Positions 29,309 to 36,206 of a stretch of DNA of 64,000 nt are shown one piece after another. The notes beneath the pieces were generated by a model. It made no database searches and was not told the DNA's origin. It saw nothing but the letters and a program-made list of their open reading frames with translations. Made by a program: the position numbers and the translations under genes. The DNA comes from a candidate division LCP-89 bacterium B3_LCP. GTDB lineage: Bacteria; Electryoneota; B3-LCP. The stretch lies in the NCBI GenBank assembly GCA_005223185.1, contig NJBN01000010.1:1-64000 (forward strand). Reading direction: 5' to 3'. Position 1 is the stretch's first letter. Each line of letters opens with the position of its first letter.

Positions 29309-29330
29309 GGCTACTAATAGCATATAGACA

Positions 29331-29358
29331 AAAAGACCGGTTCACCGGTCTTTTTTAT
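29331..29358 (+). terminator. rho-independent terminator of pepT
   Basis: AAAAGACCGG (29331-29340) and CCGGTCTTTT (29345-29354) form a 10-bp stem with a TTCA tetraloop, followed by further T residues. Its A/T-flanked symmetry would also allow function on the other strand. Confidence 0.9.
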
Positions 29359-29404: not shown

Positions 29405-29433
29405 TTGATTTATTGCCATAATGGAGTTATCTT
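29405..29433 (+). promoter_or_regulatory. promoter of the PH-Trypco1-protease operon
   Basis: TTGATT (29405-29410), 17 bases, TATCTT (29428-29433). It lies between the pepT terminator and the ATG at 29484, so the three genes downstream form their own transcription unit. Confidence 0.6.
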
Positions 29434-29483
29434 AGGATAATAGAACCCCATTCCTAAATAAAAATACCTAACTGGAGGAAATC

Positions 29484-30068
29484 ATGGAACCCCTGAATAT
29501 AACTCCCGAAAAGCAACAGCGAACCATCTGGTTCTTGACGCTACTATCCCTCACTATTCCGGTATTGATTGGATTTATTATTCTCTCACTCATAACTGAA
29601 CCAGTGCTTTTCATCTTTTTTTCGCTGGTGTGGTTGGTGATTGCAGTACTCATTGCCATATGGCTACCAGCATTCTATAAATCGCTGGAATATGTTATAG
29701 ATGACGAAGGCGTTAAAGGTAAAAGAGGCGTATTCTGGCGCAAACACGCCACAGTTTTCTACCAGAAGATCACCAATGTGGACGTAACTCAGGGGCCGGT
29801 GCAGAGGCTCTACAACATCGGCACCATTCACGTGCAGACGGCTGGTGCGGGCGGTCAGCAGGGAACGCGAGCTGAACTTCAGATCATCGGCGTCAAGGAC
29901 TATGACCAACTGAAGAACACCATCATGGCTCATTTGCCGATAGCCAAGCCTTCCACTGCGGTTATATCCCCTGATAGTGCAACCGTCTCAGACGAATCAG
30001 CAGCCCTGTCAGGAATTCTTGATGAACTCAAGGCTATCCGGCAGTTGTTGGAAAAGCAGGGGAACTGA
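29484..30068 (+). CDS. membrane protein with bacterial PH (bPH2) domain
   Basis: 194 residues after a CTGGAGGAAATC ribosome site. Two membrane helices (about 15-36 and 40-58) are followed by a YdbS/YdbT-type bacterial pleckstrin-homology domain: 'LEYVIDDEGVKGKRGVFWRK' (68-87), 'QKITNVDVTQGPVQRLYNIG' (94-113) and 'IHVQTAGAGG'. The C-terminal ~25 residues look like a short coiled coil ('ILDELKAIRQLLEKQ'). Biochemical function is unknown for most of the family. It is first after the promoter and 52 bases upstream of the Trypco1 gene, suggesting a membrane partner for the protease-NTPase; that partnership is inference. Confidence 0.8.
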   Translation: MEPLNITPEKQQRTIWFLTLLSLTIPVLIGFIILSLITEPVLFIFFSLVWLVIAVLIAIWLPAFYKSLEYVIDDEGVKGKRGVFWRKHATVFYQKITNVDVTQGPVQRLYNIGTIHVQTAGAGGQQGTRAELQIIGVKDYDQLKNTIMAHLPIAKPSTAVISPDSATVSDESAALSGILDELKAIRQLLEKQGN

Positions 30069-30120
30069 TGACAAGTTGTTAAGTCGGAAAACATTCGTTT
30101 ATTTTAAAGGAGACAGATTC

Positions 30121-30432
30121 ATGTCAGATTCATCACCTGATGTTAATGAATCCATCCTGGTTGAATTCGCCGTTCAACCTGGCGTCCAGAAGGTCAGCCT
30201 CACACAGAAAGACGTCGCCAAGAAATCTGCTGAAGCGGTCGATAGAGCCATGAGCACCATTCAGAATATGGCAGAGCGCGTGACCAGCACTATCAACGAA
30301 ATCCCACTGAAACCTGCGCAGGTTGAAGTCACATTCGGGATAAAGTTCAGTGCTGAATCAGGAGCCGTCATAGCCAAGGCGAGTTTAGAAGCCGGTATCA
30401 ACGTCAGTTTAACCTGGGATTTTAATGAGTGA
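30121..30432 (+). CDS. trypsin-co-occurring domain 1 (Trypco1) protein
   Basis: The ATG at 30121 follows AAAGGAGACAGATTC. 103 residues. The C-terminal part 'VEVTFGIKFSAESGAVIAKA' (about 69-88) followed by 'GINVSLTWDF' is the hallmark of the CU044_2847/Trypco1 family, named for its habit of lying beside trypsin-like proteases in NTPase-based conflict systems. An amphipathic helix (~35-58) precedes it. Function is not established; it is thought to bind or regulate its protease partner, or be cleaved by it. The stop overlaps the next start by 8 bases, so the two proteins are translationally coupled. Confidence 0.85.
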   Translation: MSDSSPDVNESILVEFAVQPGVQKVSLTQKDVAKKSAEAVDRAMSTIQNMAERVTSTINEIPLKPAQVEVTFGIKFSAESGAVIAKASLEAGINVSLTWDFNE

Positions 30433-33400
30433 CGGTTTTAGTTCAACCCCCCGGCTACAGTACCTGCGTAACTTCACCGTGCAGATACGCATCGCCGGAA
30501 CTGATACCATAGTTGGTACAGGCGTCGCTGTCCCTCCTGATGGTAAAGTGGTAACCTGCGCGCACGTGATCAAAGCTGCGCTGGGATTTCACCCCCGAAA
30601 AGCGGGAAAGAGAAAGGTCGGCGTTTACTACCCACAGTTGCGTGGAGATGATAGAAAGGACTACCAGGCTAAAGTCGCAGCTTGCTTTAGAGAATACGAT
30701 GATGATCTGGTTCTCCTGCAATTGACCGATGGTCCTTCACCTTTAACTCTTCAACAAATGCCCGTACTGGGAACGGCTGAAGACTCCCAGGGTAATCCCT
30801 TTCGAAGCTATGGCTACCATCGTCTGGCGCATTACATCGGTGGTTGGGCTGACGGCGATATTTCAGGTCCAGTTGATTGCCCAGAAGATGGTAATTTTCA
30901 GGCTGAACCGGTGCAGTTGGAGTCCAGTCAGATAAATCGAGGTATGAGTGGTGCTGCTGTACTGGATAAAGAACGCAACCTGGTAATTGGTGTTGTTTCC
31001 GAAACCTGGTTTCCTGATGAATCGACTAAAGACCGCGATACTGCCTGGGCGGTCAACGCCCGGGTTCTCAAGTTAGATCCACTTAACTTGCCCGTACAGG
31101 ATGAACCCCATCCCAAACGGCCCGCCCCCAAGCCCAGAATTGACGCTGAAGAGGCGCGCCGAGCGGTTGCTCCTGATCTGCAGCCCGTCTGGAACAACGC
31201 TCCACCATCGCTTGATGAATGGGTCGGCAGAGCAGAACTGCTAAAAGATTTGAGCGCCGATTGGTCCAACCCGAACCTGCGCGTCACCGGTCTGATCGGA
31301 TTTGGCGGCGAAGGCAAGAGCAGTTTGGTTCGCCGCTGGGTGGATGATCTTCTAAAGGATTCTTCCCAGATCCAGCCGGACGGTATCTTCTGGTGGGGAT
31401 TTTACGAAAAACCGAGCGTTGAGGAATTCTTCGAAGCCGCGCTTAGATACCTGAGCGGCGGCAGAATAGACACCAGCAAGCTGCCGTCTTCCAGCCTTAA
31501 AGCACAGGTTATCAGCGCCATGCTCGACGTCGGGCGATACCTCTTCATTCTGGACGGTCTGGAGGTGATGCAGCATCAGGGTGGCGACCGCTACGGTCTC
31601 TTAAAAAGCAAGGACCTGCGCGATTTTTTAGGCTACTTCTCCTCGCCGGATCACAACTCTTTCTGCCTGATTACCAGCCGGGCGCCGGTGCACGATTTAA
31701 TGGAATATGTCACCTACGTCCAGCGCGACGTTACCTGTATGCACCCAGCGGATGGCAGAGCTCTGCTGCGCAAAGTTGGGGTGGAAAAGGGCAAAGATGA
31801 TGAACTGGACAGAGTGGTGAGCGAGTGTGACGGTCATGCCTTGAGCTTGAGTCTGTTGGGATCCTTCTTAGCTGACCAGTACAGCGGCGACATTTCCAAA
31901 GCCAGTGAAATTCCGCAGCCCACCGATGAGATAACCCAGCAGGCATCTCCTAAGCAGTACGATCACGTCCACCGCATTCTACGTCGCTACGATGAGAACT
32001 TGACTAAACCTGGGCGCGCCTTCCTGACCCTCTTCAGCGCTTTCCGCTTGCCGGTAGAAGAGTCAGCTCTGGAAAAGGTCTTCCGTGCACCAGGTGAACT
32101 ATCCCTGCAAGCCTCCATAACTACACTGAGCGAGAAGAAGTTCAAAGCAATGATCACCCGCCTGCTTACCGCCCGCATCCTGCGTTTTGATACCAGTTTA
32201 GGACAGTACACCGTTCACCCTCTCATCCGCAACCACTACCAGGAACGCTTCGAAGACCACGATCCTGAACAGCAGAAAGAAGCACATTTACTCATCAGGG
32301 ATTACTACCTTGAAATGGGTGGAGACGTACCCCGCCACCCCACTCTGGATAACCTAATCCCCTTCATAGAAGCCGTGCACCACTGCTGCTTTAGTGGTGA
32401 ATATAACCAAGCCTATCAAATTCAGATCGAACATATATTCCAGTACGACCGACGTGTGGTGGCGCATGAATTGGGTGCATATGAGACTATTCTGTCGATA
32501 ATGTTTGACTTCTTCCCTGATGGTGACACTTTGCAAGATCCACTGGTAAAAAATCCGGGTGATAAAGGCTGGATTCTCAACACTGTCGGTTTCTGCCTGA
32601 TGAGCTTAGGACGTTTAAATGAAGCCGCTCCGTTCATGGAGCGTGCCAGTAAGAAGGTTATAGAATTGAAGGACTGGCACAACGCCAGCGTAGGCTACCG
32701 GAATTTAGCGGATCTCTATGCCTCTATCGGCGATCTTTCAGCCAGTCTGGATTCTGCTGAAGAAGCGCTGATACTGGCTAATCGTGAAGAAGATTCTGTT
32801 GAAAAAAGAGTAGATATACGCAACTCGCTGGTTTGGAAAGCCTGGGTTGCTCATCTGAGCGGCAATTTGCAAGAGGCGGGTGATGATTTTAAACGAGCAG
32901 AAACGTTAGAGCGCGAGGATGATTCGAGTGTGAATTATCTTTACGGTCTGCGCGGTTTCATGCACGCCCATCATTTACGGCGGTATGACGATGCGACTTA
33001 CTCTCGGAAGGTAATAGCAGCTAACTTGATCGTTTGTGAAGAAGAGCGTTATGTCAATTCTGTCAGCCGCTGCCACCGCATGCTGGGCGATCTGGATGCA
33101 GATGAAGGACAATATGACAGTGCCCGGGATCATTACGACAAAGCTCTCAGGATTGCAAGAGGTATTACATTTCTGCCTGCACTTATCGAAGCACTACTTG
33201 CGCGTGGGCGCTGGTATGCCAAATACAGGAGTGATCCTCAGGTTGCCTTCAGTGATTTGGAGGAAGCATTAGAGTACGCCCTGGATAGCGGTTATAAAAT
33301 TTATGAGGCGGACATTCGCATCGCGTTAGCCTGGGCACATTATGCGGCGGGAGACCCCACAGCAGCGCGAGCGGAGGCGGAGCGCGCCCTTAGAGAGAGC

Positions 33401-33466
33401 GAGAAAATGGGTTACCACTGGGGTAAGCTGGATTCGGAGGAGATCCTGGGTAAGCTGGAAGAATAA
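30425..33466 (+). CDS. trypsin-like protease / STAND NTPase / TPR fusion
   Basis: 1013 residues; no ribosome site, start inside the Trypco1 stop. Domain order: trypsin-like serine protease (~14-215) with H47 ('TCAHVI'), D94 ('YDDDLVLL') and S175 ('GMSGAAVL'), an intact triad; a proline-rich linker (~225-240); an NB-ARC-type STAND NTPase (~255-560) with Walker A 'GFGGEGKS' (292-299), 'FWWGFYEKPSVEEFF', Walker B 'LFILDGLE' (D377) and 'CLITSR'; then winged-helix-like and ~10 TPR-like helical pairs to the C-terminus. By analogy with STAND regulators, the TPR part would sense a trigger, the NTPase oligomerise and the protease fire. No signal peptide, so it acts in the cytoplasm. Confidence 0.93.
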   Translation: MSDGFSSTPRLQYLRNFTVQIRIAGTDTIVGTGVAVPPDGKVVTCAHVIKAALGFHPRKAGKRKVGVYYPQLRGDDRKDYQAKVAACFREYDDDLVLLQLTDGPSPLTLQQMPVLGTAEDSQGNPFRSYGYHRLAHYIGGWADGDISGPVDCPEDGNFQAEPVQLESSQINRGMSGAAVLDKERNLVIGVVSETWFPDESTKDRDTAWAVNARVLKLDPLNLPVQDEPHPKRPAPKPRIDAEEARRAVAPDLQPVWNNAPPSLDEWVGRAELLKDLSADWSNPNLRVTGLIGFGGEGKSSLVRRWVDDLLKDSSQIQPDGIFWWGFYEKPSVEEFFEAALRYLSGGRIDTSKLPSSSLKAQVISAMLDVGRYLFILDGLEVMQHQGGDRYGLLKSKDLRDFLGYFSSPDHNSFCLITSRAPVHDLMEYVTYVQRDVTCMHPADGRALLRKVGVEKGKDDELDRVVSECDGHALSLSLLGSFLADQYSGDISKASEIPQPTDEITQQASPKQYDHVHRILRRYDENLTKPGRAFLTLFSAFRLPVEESALEKVFRAPGELSLQASITTLSEKKFKAMITRLLTARILRFDTSLGQYTVHPLIRNHYQERFEDHDPEQQKEAHLLIRDYYLEMGGDVPRHPTLDNLIPFIEAVHHCCFSGEYNQAYQIQIEHIFQYDRRVVAHELGAYETILSIMFDFFPDGDTLQDPLVKNPGDKGWILNTVGFCLMSLGRLNEAAPFMERASKKVIELKDWHNASVGYRNLADLYASIGDLSASLDSAEEALILANREEDSVEKRVDIRNSLVWKAWVAHLSGNLQEAGDDFKRAETLEREDDSSVNYLYGLRGFMHAHHLRRYDDATYSRKVIAANLIVCEEERYVNSVSRCHRMLGDLDADEGQYDSARDHYDKALRIARGITFLPALIEALLARGRWYAKYRSDPQVAFSDLEEALEYALDSGYKIYEADIRIALAWAHYAAGDPTAARAEAERALRESEKMGYHWGKLDSEEILGKLEE

Positions 33467-33567: not shown

Positions 33568-33620
33568 ATTCTGTGCCACTTTATTATCTTTAGTTGTGTA
33601 GAAATACAGTTGAGGTTACC

Positions 33621-36206
33621 ATGAGAAGGATAACCAGATTACTGCCGGTATGTTCAATACTGCTGTTAGCGTTTACCTGCCCGAACCTCCCCGCCGACAC
33701 CATCCTTGACGACTTCCAGGTCAACATAGAACCTCCCGGGCATCCACCTCAGGACAGCCCCTATTCCGTTGCCGATTGGGACAGCGAAACCATCTACACT
33801 ACCTGGTTGAGTTTCCGGGATGAGATCAACTGGGACGTCGCCCTGCAGTTGTTCGACTATGACCTGGAAACCATCGGTGAAGTGCAGTACCTCAATATCC
33901 GCGAAGGTGAGTACGACTGCCAGCAGCCGATACTTTCCATAAGTTCCAACGGCATCGGCGCTGCCTGGATTGAGACAAGAGAGCCCAACCGCATCATCTT
34001 CCGGTCGCTGGATGCTTCTGGAATTCCCATCAGTTTACCTATGCGCATAGAGGACAACTACGAAGACTTCGCCCGGGATAGCTTGAATATAGCATCTCTG
34101 AATGATGGCTACATCCTGGTCTGGTACGATGAACGCGATTCGGCCGCCATCTACGCACAGATTGTGGACTTTGACGGCAATCTAATCGGCGGCAACTTCC
34201 CCATAAGACCGGACAGTACTGGAATTATCTTAGGGTTGGAAGCCCAGAACCACCCCGACGGACGCGTGCTGGTATCCTGGGTGACGGACAACCAGTACAG
34301 CCGCGGCAGGTGGCTGGATGCGGATGGGATTTTTATGGGGGATGTGTTTGATATGGTTGAAGATGGGGCAATACCTGAGCTTGTAAAGTCACTTGTCAGA
34401 TTCGAGACTGGAGGGAGCGGTATCTTATATCAGTATGAAGGCTGCTACTGGTTGGGTGACATTTACTTAACCTATTTGGACTCAATTGGTATCCAAACGT
34501 GCGTTCCTATATGGCTTGGTGAATGGGCCCTTTCGTATGGACCGGGAGAAATGCATAATAGATTCCCAGATATTATTTGCTTGCCCGATAGTGATTATGT
34601 TTCTACCCTTTTAAATCATATTGTAGGGTGGGGTAATCACTACTATTATAACACGATATATTCGACCGTTGCTGGGTTAAGTATTACACTATCGGAGATA
34701 GTTGAATGGGGAAATTACAATTTATGTCAGTTAAGTGCAGATGATTTTTTGTATACTTTCTCCATAAGCCAAATAGGATTACGTAAATATGAGATATCTA
34801 CTCTGGATTCCATCGGACAAATGGTTTGGATAAATGAACCGGACTTTGGAGTAGCACAAAATCGTCCCGGACATATCGTTCATCAAAATGGTAGCTTCCG
34901 AGTAATATATAACAATTATCTGAATGATGGTTTGGCTCTCTATACACGCAATTTTAATTCTTCAGGAATTCCCACCTCTCCTGATACCATTGCTTCTATA
35001 GGTGATCCTCCATTTATACCCACATCGAGTGGTGGTAGAATTAAGAAAACAAGTGCTGATCAGGCACTTATCATCTGGTCAAACGGTTCCATAAGAGGCA
35101 CATTATTCACTCAGAACGGCTGGTGTGGAGAAACCCATGATTATGGATGCGCAGGCGGTTGGCTTATCCCAAATTTCGACATTAACAGTCTTGATTATGT
35201 TATGAATATTTGGACGTATGTTGTTCCGGGTGGTCCTTGGGGGGATGACGCGCAGGTTTTTTGTCAACCCTTTACACAACTTTTTAGCTATTATCTTCCA
35301 GAAACAGCAGTCAGTCCAGAATGGTGGAGTAACTGGACATATAGCAACGATGTAGGACTCAGAGATGATGGAAGGTTTCTTAGCTGTTATATTGAAGATC
35401 CTTGGTATCCTCTCCTGTACGTCCATGCAGGAATTAATTATAACGAACTCATCGGTGATCGACTCTTATTATCTACATTAGTAAGCAGCGCACCATCTCT
35501 TGAGAAGTCCGAAAATGGTTACTGGCTCACCTGGATTAAAAGTGACAGCCTTTGGATACAACAGTTTGATGCAGATGCTAATTTTATCGGTGGTGTGATT
35601 TCAATTAGCTCTGATCAAGCCCTCCCCACCGGCGATCCGGACTTAGCCGTCTCCGAAAACGGTAACTTCGCTGTGGTCTGGCAGGATAGTAGGGATGATG
35701 AGGGCGACATCTACTGCCGCCAGTTCAACCCTGATGGCAGCTTCTTTGGAGAAGAGTATAGAGTCAACAGCGATCCTGTCGGTCCCTTGCAGTGGGAGCC
35801 TGCCGTTGCTTTCGGTCCTGATGATAACCTCTACTTCACCTGGACTGATTTCCGCAATCCCGGTGGTCAGGGAGACATATACTGCAAGGTTATAGAATGG
35901 GAAGACGCCCTATCCATTCCAGATGAGCCGACTCCTATCCCGCACCAGTTTACCTTGTATCCACCTGCACCTAATCCCTTCAATGCTTCGACGCAGATCA
36001 GCTACTCCATTCGGGAAGCAGGGCACGTCTCCTTAACGGTTCACAATACACTCGGACAGGAGGTCGCAGTTCTGGTTAATACCTACAGAGATGACGGACC
36101 GCATCAACTCCTCTTCGATGGTGTGGGATTAGCTTCCGGCATGTACATCTTGCGCCTGCAGTCCGGCGACCAGACCGCTCATCAGAAGATGGTGTTGTTG
36201 AAGTAA
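33621..36206 (+). CDS. large secreted protein with C-terminal sorting domain
   Basis: The ATG at 33621 follows GAGGTTACC; an upstream TTG reading is rejected. 861 residues. Signal peptide ~1-26 ('LLPVCSILLLAFTCPNLPA'). The body has propeller-like repeats ('WQDSRDDEGDIYCRQFNPDG', 'FTWTDFRNPGGQGDIYCKV') resembling the 2416 protein. The end ('FTLYPPAPNPFNASTQISYS' through 'SGMYILRLQSGDQTAHQKMV') is a type IX sorting domain. The stretch from about 34380 to 35600 is visibly more A+T-rich than both ends, as if the central variable part was replaced by recombination. The ligand is unknown. Confidence 0.85.
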   Translation: MRRITRLLPVCSILLLAFTCPNLPADTILDDFQVNIEPPGHPPQDSPYSVADWDSETIYTTWLSFRDEINWDVALQLFDYDLETIGEVQYLNIREGEYDCQQPILSISSNGIGAAWIETREPNRIIFRSLDASGIPISLPMRIEDNYEDFARDSLNIASLNDGYILVWYDERDSAAIYAQIVDFDGNLIGGNFPIRPDSTGIILGLEAQNHPDGRVLVSWVTDNQYSRGRWLDADGIFMGDVFDMVEDGAIPELVKSLVRFETGGSGILYQYEGCYWLGDIYLTYLDSIGIQTCVPIWLGEWALSYGPGEMHNRFPDIICLPDSDYVSTLLNHIVGWGNHYYYNTIYSTVAGLSITLSEIVEWGNYNLCQLSADDFLYTFSISQIGLRKYEISTLDSIGQMVWINEPDFGVAQNRPGHIVHQNGSFRVIYNNYLNDGLALYTRNFNSSGIPTSPDTIASIGDPPFIPTSSGGRIKKTSADQALIIWSNGSIRGTLFTQNGWCGETHDYGCAGGWLIPNFDINSLDYVMNIWTYVVPGGPWGDDAQVFCQPFTQLFSYYLPETAVSPEWWSNWTYSNDVGLRDDGRFLSCYIEDPWYPLLYVHAGINYNELIGDRLLLSTLVSSAPSLEKSENGYWLTWIKSDSLWIQQFDADANFIGGVISISSDQALPTGDPDLAVSENGNFAVVWQDSRDDEGDIYCRQFNPDGSFFGEEYRVNSDPVGPLQWEPAVAFGPDDNLYFTWTDFRNPGGQGDIYCKVIEWEDALSIPDEPTPIPHQFTLYPPAPNPFNASTQISYSIREAGHVSLTVHNTLGQEVAVLVNTYRDDGPHQLLFDGVGLASGMYILRLQSGDQTAHQKMVLLK

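Follow-up and report, generated by a model that had tools for sequence, protein, structure and literature searches.

Described systems and the present locus

Trypco1 was named in 2020. Kaur et al. (2020, PMC7159879) treat neighbourhoods of Trypco1 and trypsin genes as predicted conflict systems, and PMC10907252 calls Trypco1 an adapter domain. Here we describe such a neighbourhood in a stretch of 64,000 nt (the window; contig NJBN01000010.1) from the candidate division LCP-89 bacterium B3_LCP, in which a Trypco1 gene is followed by the gene for a large protein, P0003, that joins trypsin, STAND ATPase and TPR parts in one chain. The pair represents, in two-gene form, a kind of predicted conflict system that is already known, and a defence role for it is probable. 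On balance we think that it is an NLR-like conflict module, inserted between conserved chromosomal genes, whose protease would act on Trypco1 and thereby lead to arrest or death.

The closest experimental precedent is an upstream pro-nuclease that is cleaved after isoleucine by a sensor-fused trypsin domain, and in Hachiman and AVAST a gene immediately upstream encodes a pro-effector cut in this way (PMC12799240). Such nuclease-protease pairs (Hachiman, AVAST, Lamassu and DRT; PMC12799240) share with our locus a small upstream partner and an N-terminal trypsin on a sensor or ATPase, but their upstream protein is an MBL-fold nuclease, whereas Trypco1 has ∼100 residues and no nuclease motif. The VMAP MoxR-vWA ternary systems (PMC7159879) have an N-terminal trypsin fused to a larger core and a stand-alone Trypco1 adjacent to it. 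Here, however, the core is an NB-ARC/STAND ATPase with TPRs and intact Walker motifs, and there is no conserved MoxR, vWA or third gene; a VMAP-C search of the genome gave no match, and the control search likewise gave none. In CARD-NLR systems, including LypABC (PMC13236601), a trypsin-like protease, a STAND ATPase and TPR repeats also work together, but as separate protease and NLR-like proteins, the protease with an N-terminal CARD, rather than as the single fused protein found here. Finally, the structures 6mfv, Apaf-1 and MalT have the same NB-ARC/STAND ATPase fold, and their entries describe no fused serine protease, unlike P0003. The locus thus differs in arrangement from the VMAP (MoxR/vWA neighbours), MBL nuclease-protease and CARD-NLR types, and the accessible portions of PMC7159879 and PMC10907252 describe no Trypco1/STAND-TPR two-gene arrangement, although their supplements may list one.

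The conserved pair and the adjacent bPH gene

Judged from sequence comparison, the unit consists of two genes, Trypco1 and trypsin-STAND-TPR, which are conserved as a pair across phyla. A scan for relatives, with one genome taken per species, yielded 40 loci, and the protease domain is present in 28 (window included), from Zixibacteria, Chloroflexota, Cyanobacteria, Pseudomonadota, Electryoneota and methanogenic archaea. The gene immediately upstream of the trypsin-STAND-TPR gene is Trypco1 in 20 of these, a ∼150-residue membrane protein in five, and in three it is no recognised partner. This bears out the view of the first-pass annotation, which was made from the letters of the window, that Trypco1 belongs with this NLR/Apaf-1-like protein. 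When the neighbours in the window and in 29 loci were all compared with one another, no third gene family proved to be shared beside the pair. The closest genome that bears the module is that of Candidatus Hatepunaea meridiana (L059/G003), from Candidatus Electryoneota, which is also the window's phylum by genome search; it holds Trypco1 and a large gene whose product is 47% identical to P0003. The large gene starts inside the Trypco1 gene, the two overlapping by 8 bases (ATGAGTGA), as had been noted at the outset, and the identical overlap recurs in G003.

In two cyanobacteria the protease and STAND-TPR parts are encoded apart, as separate consecutive genes behind Trypco1 (L063:5992-9023) or split likewise into consecutive reading frames (L055:2857-5922). 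In a Methanophagales archaeon (L077:5860-7118), a divergent Trypco1 gene is followed by a trypsin-STAND gene that is cut by the contig end, and both lie downstream of another STAND-TPR gene.

The first-pass annotation had described a single operon of three genes, headed by a bPH membrane protein that it took to be a new third component. All three open reading frames and their Pfam domains are there as described (bPH_2, 194 residues, E = 5e-17; Trypco1, 103 residues, E = 2.7e-21, 76.4 bits against a curated cut-off of 24.6; P0003, 1013 residues, with Trypsin_2 at 4e-12, NB-ARC at 5e-9 and TPR_12 at 6e-19). They lie on the same strand, with a 52-nt gap after bPH and no terminator found between bPH and the downstream genes, so that co-transcription is possible in this genome. 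The operon layout holds for the window, but as a unit the three genes are not conserved. The neighbourhood search that had been set beforehand to decide the matter found no conservation: a bPH profile built from nine sequences of the phylum matched none of the 40 related loci (0/40). Of the 39 genomes of the phylum, 12 encode a homologue of the bPH protein (P0001) and two encode Trypco1, and the window genome alone combines them; 11 of the 12 bPH-bearing genomes are devoid of Trypco1, and no bPH match was detected in G003, the other Trypco1/trypsin-STAND genome.

The surroundings of bPH in two genomes of the same family point the same way. In G012, a bPH gene (46% identical) is followed directly by a homologue of the gene at 33594-36206 of the window, with no Trypco1 or protease gene in between and an LptD-like fragment further on, so that the site is empty. 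G011 has PepT on the upstream side in unchanged order, and there a single permease gene separates bPH from the 33594-36206 homologue. Since bPH keeps its flanks where the module is missing, the module was added downstream of a bPH gene that was already there. The evidence from synteny, from presence/absence and from the neighbourhoods together rules out bPH as a module component; it is an unrelated neighbour of the pair, and a three-gene system with bPH as its membrane effector or anchor is very improbable. A further match of the bPH protein, to DUF7642, scores just above the cut-off.

The pair otherwise sits between ordinary genes: the neighbours in the window are prolyl oligopeptidase, PepT (M20), bPH, a Por-tail protein and LptD. 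Base composition is average, except that the GC content of the large gene is slightly higher, and we found no convincing flanking repeats or tRNA as marks of insertion. Upstream of bPH, the terminator noted in the first-pass annotation corresponds to the hairpin of the PepT gene. The promoter it had placed at 29405-29433 is no better than chance, with four promoter-like sites in the region against 4.2 expected; the best of them is at 29413-29441 (TTGCCA-17-GATAAT).

Architecture of the large protein

P0003 has the features of a STAND/NLR-like ATPase, namely an NB-ARC-type P-loop with Walker A and B motifs (match at residues 282-520, 36.2 bits against a cut-off of 23.5) and C-terminal superhelical repeats, and in front of these the catalytic triad of a Trypsin_2, Deg/HtrA-like serine protease (match at residues 31-190). 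The residues singled out in the first reading (H47, D94 and S175; Walker A, 292-GFGGEGKS-299; Walker B, D377; the TPR-like tail) are all present, and those of the triad and Walker motifs are conserved. In alignment A4 all 21 protease-bearing proteins have the triad intact, as do 27 of 28 proteins in the wider set, where L071 is frame-broken; each of the 26 rows that extend over K298 and S299 conserves both, and D377 is invariant in A4.

The AlphaFold2 model has high-confidence repeat helices, and the protease domain begins near residue 14, with no helical domain seen before it. Its best PDB match by Foldseek is the STAND-TPR protein 6mfv (E = 1.6e-14, over most of the chain), followed by Apaf-1, MalT (8bob) and CED-4, while the protease domain matches DegP, Deg5 and DegS; a sequence search of solved structures gave no match. 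As modelled, P0003 would combine a Deg-like protease with a STAND-TPR chassis of the Apaf-1/MalT type. The protease domain also weakly matches DRT RT-Protease models. Digestive trypsins owe their Arg/Lys specificity to an Asp six residues before the catalytic Ser. The corresponding position of P0003, 169, is Q, and it varies among Q, H, N, D, E and T across the alignment; because it is not conserved, trypsin-like specificity should not be assumed, and "trypsin-like" refers here to the fold and not to the cut site.

Table 1. Features of the locus and of the related loci discussed in the text.
Feature	Coordinates	Strand	Basis or remark
Intrinsic terminator hairpin of upstream PepT gene	29330..29355	+	-14.9 kcal/mol, z=-4.9
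bPH membrane gene, neighbour outside module	29484..30068	+	Empty-site/synteny comparison with G012, G011; presence/absence across phylum
Likely ribosome-binding site AAAGGAGA	30106..30113	+	7 nt 5' of Trypco1 ATG; direct sequence reading
Trypco1 gene, 103 aa, dedicated protease partner	30121..30432	+	Pfam PF19493; NCBIfam CU044_2847 family; upstream of protease in 20/28 loci
Trypsin-STAND-TPR gene (P0003), 1013 aa	30425..33466	+	Pfam; AlphaFold2 pLDDT (predicted local distance difference test) 87.9; PDB matches 6mfv, Apaf-1, MalT
Deg/HtrA-like serine protease domain, residues ∼14-216	30464..31072	+	Trypsin_2 match; H47/D94/S175; Foldseek
NB-ARC/STAND nucleotide-binding domain, residues ∼268-520	31226..31984	+	NB-ARC match; Walker A 292-299, Walker B D377
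Winged-helix-like segment, residues ∼526-611, HP motif H598-P599	32000..32257	+	AlphaFold secondary structure; HP conservation
TPR superhelix, residues ∼612-1013, presumed sensor	32258..33463	+	Pfam TPR families; all-helical repeats in model
Membrane partner	L048:5469-5924; L057:5528-5977; L058:5461-5931; L065:2574-3044; L066:777-1226		Upstream of trypsin-STAND-TPR gene
Further STAND-TPR proteins, window's own genome	L040:6325-9096; L042:6594-9443; L043:6253-9051		

Besides P0003, the window's own genome encodes three other members of this STAND-TPR family, 28-30% identical. That at L040 has an N-terminal TIR domain, and the N-termini of the other two are helical-looking and belong to no Pfam family. 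The STAND-TPR chassis is modular, and effector swapping of this type is usual in NLR-like systems. These swappable N-terminal effectors, TIR among them, count against an alternative in which the pair has no immune role, and a MalT-like STAND switch responds to a metabolite or misfolded protein, with its Deg-like protease serving regulation or quality control. MalT and the Deg proteases are indeed among the best structural matches, and the ordinary surroundings and composition of the locus would suit such a role. However, the module is patchily distributed, being found in only two of 39 genomes of the phylum and yet in distant bacteria and archaea, and Trypco1 co-occurs with predicted conflict systems (PMC7159879), so that we consider non-immune signalling unlikely. 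Plasmids gave no full-length match, and phages gave no match at all.

Trypco1, the membrane partner and the proposed mechanism

The membrane partner that takes the Trypco1 slot in five loci (Table 1) is a hydrophobic protein (MSAPFRI...) with two to three strongly hydrophobic segments, and is dissimilar to Trypco1. All five proteases that accompany it carry an insertion of ∼27 residues after the NPR motif, which is found in none of the 23 others, and this confinement suggests that the partner works with the protease. On a protease-domain tree built with the insertion columns left out, the membrane-partner group requires at least two changes, on well-supported branches (one change in 0% of bootstraps), and the Zixibacteria case falls outside the cyanobacterial clade. 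These comparisons show that the partner slot is interchangeable, with a multi-spanning membrane protein replacing Trypco1 in some relatives, which supports the partner, and not the ATPase, as the carrier of the end effect.

Assignment of the membrane partner to Trypco2 or another named family failed, as no Pfam, NCBIfam or PADLOC family scored above cut-off. Seven cyanobacterial loci (L107-L111, L127 and L128) have a distant relative of it as the next gene downstream of an EAD1-trypsin gene. Pfam confirms EAD1 and Trypsin_2 in L108 and L127, the other five being assigned by visible similarity, and in at least one locus, L110, a relative lies beside an EAD1-iSTAND gene. Weaker relatives in Chloroflexota are not beside proteases, and the membrane protein family is therefore broader.

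Trypco1 itself is assigned by PF19493 above cut-off and by its position beside a trypsin gene. Its model is of moderate confidence (pLDDT 63) and consists of a helix (29-60) and two strands (67-80 and 87-100) that form a long hairpin. The strands alternate between hydrophobic and polar residues well beyond shuffled sequences, which makes the hairpin strongly amphipathic. There are no significant fold matches, and several of the non-significant ones are pore hairpins. A dodecin-like fold, raised by a weak Pfam match (E = 0.057), was set aside: the top fold matches, as listed, include no dodecin and no significant match. One might imagine that Trypco1 is a membrane-active effector, a minimal gasdermin-like executioner that is cut free by the ATPase-activated protease and then lines a pore with the hairpin of its two amphipathic strands, each of 14 residues, and which the multi-spanning membrane partner can replace in its slot. 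We regard this as a long shot, and a soluble helix-on-hairpin fold explains the amphipathic hairpin and the pore-hairpin matches equally well.

In the mechanism that we favour, the conflict module with Trypco1 as the target of its own protease, the TPR superhelix would keep the ATPase in a closed state until it encounters a trigger, which is probably a foreign protein. An exchange of nucleotide would then allow P0003 to oligomerise, and the clustered N-terminal Deg-like proteases would become active. The activated protease would act first on Trypco1, most likely its substrate or pro-effector, and infection would be limited by the growth arrest or cell death that follows.

Trypco1 could instead be an adaptor or inhibitor, which keeps the protease inactive or recruits a target, while the protease cuts host or phage proteins directly. 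The designation as an adapter domain (PMC10907252) agrees with this, as do the small size of Trypco1, its lack of an enzyme motif and its modelled long helix and hairpin, and the translational overlap of the two genes would be in keeping with a stoichiometric inhibitor or chaperone. Replacement by a dissimilar multi-spanning membrane protein fits an effector more easily, however, and the gene order matches that of the known pro-effector/protease pairs (PMC12799240); we therefore hold the adaptor or inhibitor role to be the less likely, though a serious, possibility.

Several observations weigh against a module in which the protease acts on Trypco1. Three protease-STAND loci (L050, L052 and L055) have no recognised partner, and Trypco1 has no enzyme-like motif; nor did we find in the literature an experimental test of any Trypco1 protein. 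The match between partner type and insertion rests on two independent events and is thus suggestive rather than strong. Distances between Trypco1 proteins correlate with those between protease domains (r = 0.64, p = 0.0002), but the correlation falls short of significance once near-duplicate pairs are left out (r = 0.29, p = 0.065); we take this as a trend and do not rely on it as evidence of co-evolution. Finally, the pair sits among ordinary chromosomal genes with no visible defence island around it.

The most useful new observation is the interchangeable membrane partner with its matching protease insertion, which offers a direct experimental handle on the partner's role. With only two genes, for a sensor-ATPase-protease and a small partner, the system is easier to test than the multi-gene ternary systems, and the bPH gene is an example of an ordinary neighbour that can be taken, wrongly, for part of a system. 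The Trypco1/trypsin-STAND-TPR pair resembles a small bacterial counterpart of the animal NLR receptors, a sensor ATPase with its own protease and a partner of ∼100 residues.

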